A DNA stretch of 45,041 nt. Origin: Clostridia bacterium (GTDB lineage: Bacteria > Bacillota > Clostridia > Oscillospirales > CAG-382). The stretch's first letter is position 1. Each line of letters opens with the position of its first letter. Where the stretch lies: contig JAFSGD010000016.1 in assembly GCA_017434845.1 (NCBI GenBank), forward strand, positions 1 to 45,041. Direction: 5' to 3'. The notes beneath the pieces are model-generated. The model was not told where the DNA came from. It saw nothing but the letters and a program-made list of their open reading frames with translations, and searched no databases. Positions 44,509 through 45,041 of the stretch are shown here, one piece after another. Both the position numbers and the translations under genes were made by a program.

Positions 44509-44586
44509 GGTGGCTGTAGCTCAGCTGGTTAGAGTACCAGGTTGTGGCCCTGGGGGTCGCCGGTTCGAACCCGGTCAGCCACCCCA
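44509..44586 (+). tRNA. tRNA-His(GTG)
   Basis: Acceptor stem GTGGCTG / CAGCCAC preceded by G-1 (44509), which pairs with discriminator C (44583) as required for HisRS. Anticodon loop TTGTGGC with GTG, T arm GTTCGAAC, encoded CCA. Confidence 0.96.
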
Positions 44587-44587
44587 G

Positions 44588-44621
44588 AAAAAACTCTTGT
44601 TCTTTCGAACAAGAGTTTTTT
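44588..44621 (+). terminator. Terminator of the tRNA cluster
   Basis: 15-bp stem AAAAAACTCTTGTTC / GAACAAGAGTTTTTT with a TTTC loop, 1 base after the tRNA-His CCA. Confidence 0.92.
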
Positions 44622-44623
44622 CA

Positions 44624-44796
44624 GTTATATTCGCCTTCGGCGAGTTATATTGCTTCGCAGTGATATTTAGGCTACGCCTAAGTGATATTGCCCTTCGGGC
44701 AGTTAAGAGGCGAATATAATATCACTTTTGCGTAAGCAAAAATATCACTATGCCGTAAGGCGTAATATCACTCTGTGCGATAGCACAGAATATCAC
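44624..44796. repeat. Ladder of nested hairpins built from GTGATATT / AATATCAC units
   Basis: Left half: GT(T/G)ATATT at 44624, 44644, 44660 and 44682, each followed by a hairpin with a TTC or TAC triloop (stems CGCC, GC, TAGGC, GCCC). Right half: AATATCAC at 44718, 44741, 44764 and 44789, separated by hairpins with GTAA or GATA loops (stems TTTGC, TATGCC, TCTGTGC). The 8-base units of the left half are complementary, in nested order, to those of the right half, so the whole folds into one long stem with side hairpins facing each other. Stem sequences differ between units while spacers and loops are kept. No ORF was found within it. It lies between the tRNA terminator and the promoter of the next gene. 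Confidence 0.9.
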
Positions 44797-44803
44797 TAAT
44801 CCC

Positions 44804-44832
44804 TTGAAACTCCGTCGCTTTTATGCTATAAT
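44804..44832 (+). promoter_or_regulatory. Promoter of the final lipoprotein gene
   Basis: TTGAAA (44804-44809), 17-base spacer, TATAAT (44827-44832), 8 bases after the hairpin ladder. Confidence 0.82.
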
Positions 44833-44852: not shown

Positions 44853-45041
44853 ATGAAAAGATTTGTTTCAATAATTGTTGTTTTTATGCTGTTGTTTTCT
44901 CTTTCTGCTTGCTCTGATAAAGCTGTCAAGGGCAGTGTTGTTCGTGAATCTACCTATGGCAACGCAGAACTTGATATAATGCCACAAAAACTTATGGAAA
45001 ATATCATAGTTGGTGATACGGTTTTAGTTACAATCGGTGAC
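44853..45041 (+). CDS. Lipoprotein, N-terminal part only
   Basis: 63 residues are visible before the window ends. A GGCGGTGAT sequence, which can pair with the 16S 3' end, precedes two adjacent ATG codons (44850 and 44853); either may be used. The signal peptide MKRFVSIIVVFMLLFSL leads to the lipobox SLSAC (Cys near residue 20). The mature part begins SDKAVKGSVVRESTYGNAELDIM. No domain could be assigned from this fragment. Confidence 0.75.
   Translation, partial: MKRFVSIIVVFMLLFSLSACSDKAVKGSVVRESTYGNAELDIMPQKLMENIIVGDTVLVTIGD

Follow-up and report, generated by a model that had tools for sequence, protein, structure and literature searches.

The hairpin-linker array at positions 44624..44796 (+ strand) of a 45,041-nucleotide (nt) stretch of Clostridia bacterium DNA (contig JAFSGD010000016.1; this whole stretch is called the window here) looks like a module of a so far undescribed type of mobile gene cassette. 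Taken as a whole, the evidence makes it probable that the array is the front module of a family of tRNA-linked mobile gene cassettes, and that the window holds a copy without the gene for an IVP protein (PF05635, 23S_rRNA_IVP). The array is composed of four GT(T/G)ATATT and four AATATCAC words, with hairpins between and after the words. On the + strand, the window shows tRNA-Gly, tRNA-Arg and tRNA-His genes (ARAGORN), a terminator, the array, a promoter-like site and a lipoprotein-like gene in this order. The tRNA-His gene (44510..44586, +; ARAGORN and Rfam), the putative cassette anchor site, is followed by the intrinsic terminator of the tRNA operon (44587..44622, +; GAAAAAACTC...GAGTTTTTTC, 16 pairs), which is the usual left neighbour of such arrays, and directly by the array, which has homologues elsewhere. 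The promoter-like site TTGAAA-17-TATAAT (44804..44832, +; one found against 0.8 expected) resembles the module before the IVP or passenger genes of related cassettes (loci L393 and L146). The passenger gene (44853..45041, +), cut by the contig end, encodes a small lipoprotein-like protein with 44% identity to a passenger of genome G270. The window genome is a draft (88% complete), as are most of the comparison genomes (designated by G handles). The original prediction, made from the sequence of the window, had located the word units exactly, with both word sets and the intervening hairpins present, and had correctly stated that the array is not in a gene (no plausible gene covers it; it is flanked by the tRNA-His terminator and the promoter-like site); it had missed the genomic context of a tRNA gene, an IVP protein and a passenger gene.

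A complete cassette would consist of a host tRNA gene with its terminator, a hairpin-linker array, a promoter, an IVP gene and, in many cases, a passenger gene that begins with an ATG overlapping the stop codon of IVP. Passengers would be exchanged between cassettes, the IVP gene could be lost, and cassettes could be stacked in tandem, whereas solo arrays with end hairpins would spread into the loops of intrinsic terminators in the manner of miniature inverted-repeat transposable elements (MITEs). The window would then carry a cassette without IVP behind tRNA-His, reduced to the array, the promoter and the passenger lipoprotein gene. The array would be the cis-acting part, because copies keeping the array and its ends, but neither IVP nor passenger, still spread. 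The IVP protein is the likely reader of the array: each IVP type would bind the word or hairpins of its own array, in the form of RNA, single-stranded DNA or a cruciform, and IVP together with a host enzyme would promote insertion at stem-loop sites. Of all steps in the cassette reading, this presumed part of IVP in movement is the least secure.

An all-against-all comparison of the open reading frames (ORFs) around 112 array loci revealed a four-helix-bundle protein in four loci, close to the array in three of them. In these three loci the protein lies directly behind the array and belongs to PF05635; its closest solved chain is 2rld (five chains). PF05635 proteins are present in 19 of 24 genomes of the genus, 50 of 63 of the family, 71 of 147 of the order and 35 of 199 of the phylum, and in none of 14 controls. 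Outside the order, IVP proteins are found in Nostoc, Treponema, Bernardetia and Monoglobus (from annotation alone). The regions upstream of 30 IVP genes from the genus mostly read tRNA, terminator, array, promoter and IVP, with many different words. For wider tests, IVP loci were chosen by score and not at random (the best matches, 60 picked down the lists and four exact-core loci), and the tRNA test used the 124 unique ORFs among 143 IVP ORFs, those with at least 450 nt upstream. A same-strand tRNA gene was present within 600 nt upstream of 61 of these 124 genes (median distance 247, 14 isotypes) and an opposite-strand tRNA gene upstream of none, against 3 same-strand and 1 opposite-strand genes downstream of 113. 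Of the 61 tRNA-linked loci, 56 had a T-run no more than 75 nt from the tRNA end. Array-like stretches showed the same polarity, with 56 of 116 genes having one upstream and 6 downstream.

The array words also follow the IVP proteins. The word test against shuffles was passed by 19 of 27 IVP genes of the genus (three of the 30 loci, with short upstream regions, were left out), and word similarity correlated with IVP identity (Mantel r 0.445, reached by none of 2000 permutations, n = 98). This set of 98 was filtered by length, word score, hairpin number and 95% identity; about 20 of its members come from IVP clades without clear hairpin arrays, and the word found by the script is not always the true linker. 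No PF05635 ORF was found between the window array and the contig end; relatives do encode IVP. The tRNA-His site itself shows turnover: the window has an array but lacks IVP, G012 (L236) has another word followed by IVP and an acetyltransferase-family gene, and, within the stretch read, G013 (L025) has a third word without IVP and G003 (L022) has no array.

Several further IVP loci were recorded. The window genome carries a truncated IVP gene behind an array with another word (ATATCATC first; L399, G000:C26:1-470), followed by an ATGA-coupled gene (by eye; a weak PF05635 match). In a clade of KSFDFAVRIVNLY-type IVP (L287-L291, L296-L298, L308, L310, L311), short repeated words without hairpins (such as GCATAATGCATAATG or AATTAGAAATGAGAA) lie directly upstream, and in some loci they recur behind IVP as well. 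SPLLDKSLDFA-type IVP genes (L239, L242, L252, L253, L346) are located behind tRNA genes and arrays of purine-pyrimidine words with few hairpins, perhaps a degenerate form of the array. In Monoglobus pectinilyticus (L402, NZ_OY725736.1, 80876-81217) an IVP gene is located between hsdS and hsdR within a type I restriction operon and is missing from the gene table of that record.

The window array is not unique. Counting two neighbouring pieces on contig C9 once, its 13 matches in the window genome fall at 12 places, the window copy included, and matches occur in at least 14 of the 24 genus genomes among the matches listed. Related arrays with other words recur in the genus, family and order. The exact core was found in at least 112 stretches, 80 of which come from Clostridia, Oscillospiraceae, Ruminococcus and Clostridiales assemblies and one uncultured bacterium, many of them from ruminant gut; a human faecal scaffold contains tRNA-Arg, array and IVP. 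Three long copies in the window genome are 90-93% identical across 353-436 bp. Solo copies are short, non-coding and multi-copy, as MITEs are, and in two loci inspected by eye (L066 and L067) their ends are alike over about 20 bp.

These solo copies sit in the loops of intrinsic terminators. In 14 loci of reverse orientation, units of 280-424 bp lie between terminator arms, with A's and one arm before the unit and the other arm and T's after it, and the arms differ from locus to locus. When the left flanks of 34 solo copies were compared with their own right terminator arms, the mean score was 23.8 against 20.9 for the best of 5000 permutations, and the own left arm ranked first of 34 in 15 copies. 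This test used 34 of 53 copies; the exclusions were three with a short left flank, five without a recognised end hairpin, nine whose end hairpins were of the tRNA type, one containing N stretches and one that lacked a T-run. Filled and empty sites were also identified. The G003 copy lies between CACCGCC and GGCGGTG, at a position where all 11 other orthologues have a plain terminator (for example CACTGCC-CTT-GGCGGTG in G011), and comparison of the two sites by eye leaves at most a TT repeat as a target duplication. For a second gene, nine of the 11 loci found were examined: the same terminator holds one subfamily in G003 and a different one in G007, six loci are plain and one is cut by a contig end.

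In four loci (L230, L245, L304, L327) the IVP stop codon is followed by GGGTTTGGG...GCGATGCTGGTT, and a similar segment stands directly after the promoter in solo copies of subfamily B (L007 type). Because of this resemblance, the subfamily B copies look, from sequence, like IVP elements minus the ORF. Since solo copies without IVP or passenger still occupy many sites, the array and its ends appear sufficient in cis. Two observations on solo copies and hairpins stand on their own. A solo copy lies inside the terminator CGGTAGG...CCTACCG of a phage contig (L401, IMGVR_UViG_3300029305_004744, about 1595-1935), upstream of terminase and major head genes, so that phages are a possible vehicle; and small inserts such as GGGGTCCCCGCGAAAGATGCTTTCGTGGGGC are nested in the loops of single array hairpins (L004, L010, L011, L075, L081, L083).

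The genes behind IVP point to a passenger position. In 28 of 133 loci, an ORF with an ATG start and a length of 90 codons or more begins at -1 relative to the IVP stop codon, a count made without preference for starts near the IVP stop, against 0.65 loci on average and four at most for the other offsets from -20 to +60. A Pfam scan of ten next proteins identified two GNAT acetyltransferases, one WapI-like immunity protein and one histidine phosphatase; one was MazG-like below the cut-off and five had no family. PADLOC matched none of six proteins. Like passengers occur behind different words, as judged by eye (L243, L317 and L350; L340, L341 and L348).

The window passenger was found in the window genome alone among 63 family genomes. 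In 394 genomes of the order it had six matches, of which two were weak and four strong, including the window. Three of the four strong matches follow an array directly, except that IVP intervenes in G270, where the order is tRNA-Arg, array, IVP and passenger. G486 has array, promoter and passenger in a row of four array-gene units (by eye); no tRNA gene occurs within the 8.1 kb read. In G492 the order is tRNA-Gln, a terminator, an apparent C-terminal remnant of IVP (by eye) and the passenger. At the DNA level the G486 copy shares 86% (225 nt) and 92% (180 nt) identity with the window gene and its continuation, and because G486 belongs to another family of the order, this identity suggests a recent exchange. 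The continuation was located in the window genome, where contigs C8 and C47 seem to break inside one passenger gene: the gene reaches the window end at 45041, G000:C47:1-120 matches the rest, and the two contigs probably join there.

Tandem cassettes were recognised by eye in L397 and L146 and are not present in the window. L397 (G486:C11:27000-35129) contains four array-gene units with different array types, whose passengers include peptidyl-tRNA-hydrolase-like and GtrA-like proteins (by eye). In L391:1-200, L393 and L146:1071 a common tail, ACCGGTTCCATTTTGAGTGTCGGTCCCA, stands between the passenger and a terminator; it is reminiscent of the 3' end of a tRNA (CCGGTTC...CCCA), and a similar tail is present in L232. 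A pattern search for the tRNA-like tail gave four cases only, and the tail is possibly an attachment remnant. Before the array terminator of L239, L228 and L248 there is an apparent second tRNA 3' end (..AATCCCACCTTCTCCGCCA in L239) and a GATTCGAAGGG...stem-rich insert (by eye), perhaps another element that targets tRNA genes.

The coupling of array, promoter and genes could also be explained if the array were an operator only, that is, a tandem site through which IVP controls the promoter and the passenger, the whole unit being moved by an unrelated enzyme. This explanation accounts for the array directly before the promoter in IVP loci, for the correlation of word and IVP type, and for the overlapping start that couples IVP and passenger. 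It is nevertheless unlikely, since solo copies have spread after the loss of IVP and passenger, so that array and ends suffice in cis, and since it leaves the end hairpins and the terminator-loop sites unexplained.

Whether the array acts as an RNA was considered from its structure and its family. In the window, the left words are GTTATATT (44624-44631 and 44644-44651) and GTGATATT (44660-44667 and 44682-44689) and the right words AATATCAC (44718-44725, 44741-44748, 44764-44771 and 44789-44796), with hairpins at 44632-44642, 44652-44658, 44668-44680 and 44690-44700 in the left half and at 44727-44740, 44750-44763 and 44773-44788 in the right half, all on the + strand. A possible helix enclosing the left half (TATATTCGCC at 44627-44636 with GGCGAATATA at 44709-44718, +), an alternative to the first hairpin, had escaped the original prediction. 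The stretch 44600-44820 folds as RNA with -75.5 kcal/mol (z -6.1, none of 200 shuffles as good) and gives the same z of -6.1 as DNA, again with none of 200 shuffles as good; the minimum-energy RNA fold is the long nested stem of the original prediction and not a row of local hairpins.

The earlier view that no family could be named for the array does not hold, because its left half matches Rfam Gut-1 (RF01706; 44622..44693, +) with 52.1 bits, above the gathering score of 50. The right half scores 25 bits on the - strand, below this cut-off, and the gathering threshold is also reached by five of 16 related loci scanned (L002, L007, L051, L053, L073). Gut-1 is a candidate RNA without known function (Weinberg 2010, PMC2864571), and consecutive hairpins with a repeated 7-8 nt word between them are common to Gut-1 and the arrays. 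Unlike Gut-1 as described there, the matching region here is half of a larger module, has many word types, and is tied to tRNA, IVP and passenger genes. The linker GUGAAAU of Gut-1 is not that of the window array, whose words in the Gut-1 alignment are GUUAUAUU/GUGAUAUU; arrays with GTGAAAT words do occur at other loci (L247, L251).

Covariation was analyzed in 30 cores hand-picked from 78 distinct left-half cores. In the local hairpins, 99.4% of cells were paired against a shuffled mean of 81.9%, with 58 double-change cells against 15.4 and a covariation score of 0.423 against 0.083 in shuffles, and the signal was lost when the partner was slid by 1-3 columns. Thus, the hairpins do keep pairing while their stems change, as had been proposed from the single copy. 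Two of five measures (pairs with double change and further pair types) were not above shuffles, being reached by 159 and 100 of 500. Variation is found in hairpins three and four only; hairpins one and two are almost constant, as is the enclosing helix, and all of these are uninformative, the helix TATATTCGCC/GGCGAATATA being near-invariant across the aligned cores and hence without covariation evidence. The nested ladder of linker words was not supported: although the minimum-energy fold favours it, left and right words vary independently. As a candidate structure it was rejected; perfect complementarity was seen in 90 of 234 nested word pairs, where 84.7 were expected, and 12 of 112 non-consensus left words had a complementary partner.

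No single-sided (G-U) change occurs in the 30 cores, and stem interruptions in 98 IVP-upstream regions comprise 12 G-T, 10 A-C and 36 other mismatches. Because G-U intermediates are absent and G-T and A-C are balanced, we infer that the palindrome is maintained in the DNA itself or through a mechanism of copying, and not as one RNA strand. The same two observations weaken a strand-specific RNA as a candidate. Of the two options offered originally, a structured RNA or a mobile repeat, the second agrees with a dispersed, moving repeat and the first lacks the signature of a one-strand RNA. That Gut-1 is a functional structured RNA, transcribed by read-through of the tRNA terminator or from its own promoter and spreading only incidentally, would fit the gathering score of the left half, the strong RNA fold (z -6.1), the covarying hairpins and the loops of the left half, which read UUC on the + strand. 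We consider it improbable, as there is no strand preference, the same architecture is seen with other words, and copies lie in terminators in both directions (by eye, opposed to the upstream gene in L047 and L054 and in the same direction in L304 and L327).

Several results weigh against the cassette reading. The next gene does not start at -1 in 105 of 133 loci, the IVP remnant of G492 has no tblastn support, and 63 of the 124 IVP genes lack a nearby tRNA gene on the same strand. A looser array rule detected arrays upstream of 85 and downstream of 23 of 116 genes. IVP does not need arrays, because 8 of 27 genus genes failed the word test and 27 of 28 genes in the phylum sample failed it too (one passed), and the correlation of word and IVP may reflect common descent only. 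In 19 of the 34 solo copies the own left arm was not the best, and no target duplication or crossover point was proved at the insertion sites. With respect to enzymes, no recombinase or transposase was present among the 30 largest ORF clusters of the 112 array loci. Neither reverse transcriptase nor Y1 transposase was found in the window genome, at its 88% completeness, and they occur in six and five of the 24 genus genomes, respectively; IS1182 transposases were found in none of the 24 above the cut-off. As helpers, these three enzymes were rejected, since they are not consistently present in the 24 genomes, which are drafts.

Very improbable, finally, is the explanation that the arrays are ordinary MITEs of an undetected stem-loop-targeting insertion sequence, with IVP and passengers as chance neighbours: the similar ends of L066 and L067, the many copies and stem-loop targets such as those published for IS1272 (PMC5678879) agree with it, but in a search limited to these transposase families IS1182 was found in 0 of 24 genomes above the cut-off and Y1 in five, the IVP-array-tRNA order is far above controls, and the target arms are kept, not replaced.

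The cassettes resemble integron cassettes, 23S rRNA intervening sequences and IS1272, but differ from each of them in a defining property. Integron cassettes are tandem single-gene units with palindromic sites and exchangeable passengers, and the units described here likewise combine tandem single genes, structured palindromic sites and exchangeable passengers. In contrast to the integron type, which is promoterless and has its recombination site after the gene, the array stands before the gene and each cassette has a promoter-like site. No integrase was present among the ORF clusters beside the arrays, in which no search aimed at IntI was made. REP and REPIN sequences (repetitive extragenic palindromes), which are associated with RAYT, are dispersed non-coding palindromes in intergenic DNA, as the arrays are; unlike them, the arrays contain multiple hairpins, and Y1 is limited to five of 24 genomes and was not found in the window genome.

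The 23S rRNA intervening sequences, with a length of 428 nt in one case described (PMC4990558), share the family IVP/S23p by name and lie in a hairpin loop of a host RNA gene. Here the elements are located behind or inside terminators, with word-hairpin arrays and passengers, and the passages of PMC4990558 considered mention no array; the window copy lies behind tRNA-His and not in a 23S rRNA helix, and has no PF05635 gene between array and contig end. IS1272 (IS1182 family), which is described as leaving no target duplication, likewise enters inverted repeats whose sequences are unrelated, but it is reported to replace the target inverted repeat (PMC5678879), whereas here the terminator arms remain on both sides. 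Avd of diversity-generating retroelements is reported to resemble PF05635 (PMC10053308); here, reverse transcriptase was found in six of 24 genomes and not in the window genome. In the open-licence PMC literature, mostly judged by title, no description of the combination of array, tRNA, IVP and passengers was found.

The association gives an orphan Rfam motif a place as the visible end of a cassette system that is widespread. It also gives PF05635 a genomic context with a candidate nucleic-acid partner, the word array; the function and origin of the 23S rRNA elements of this family were still called unclear after 25 years in PMC4990558. A broader proposal, which we offer tentatively and hold somewhat short of an even chance, is that the cassettes form a gene-capture class in which arrays read by cognate IVPs would serve as portable cassette ends and tRNA terminators as entry sites, so that small accessory genes could be inserted, exchanged and stacked without an integron-type integrase, with the 23S rRNA intervening sequences as a relative specialised for rRNA loops. 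If the cassette reading itself is correct, gut Clostridia that are common but uncultured would possess a route of their own by which small accessory genes are exchanged at tRNA genes.
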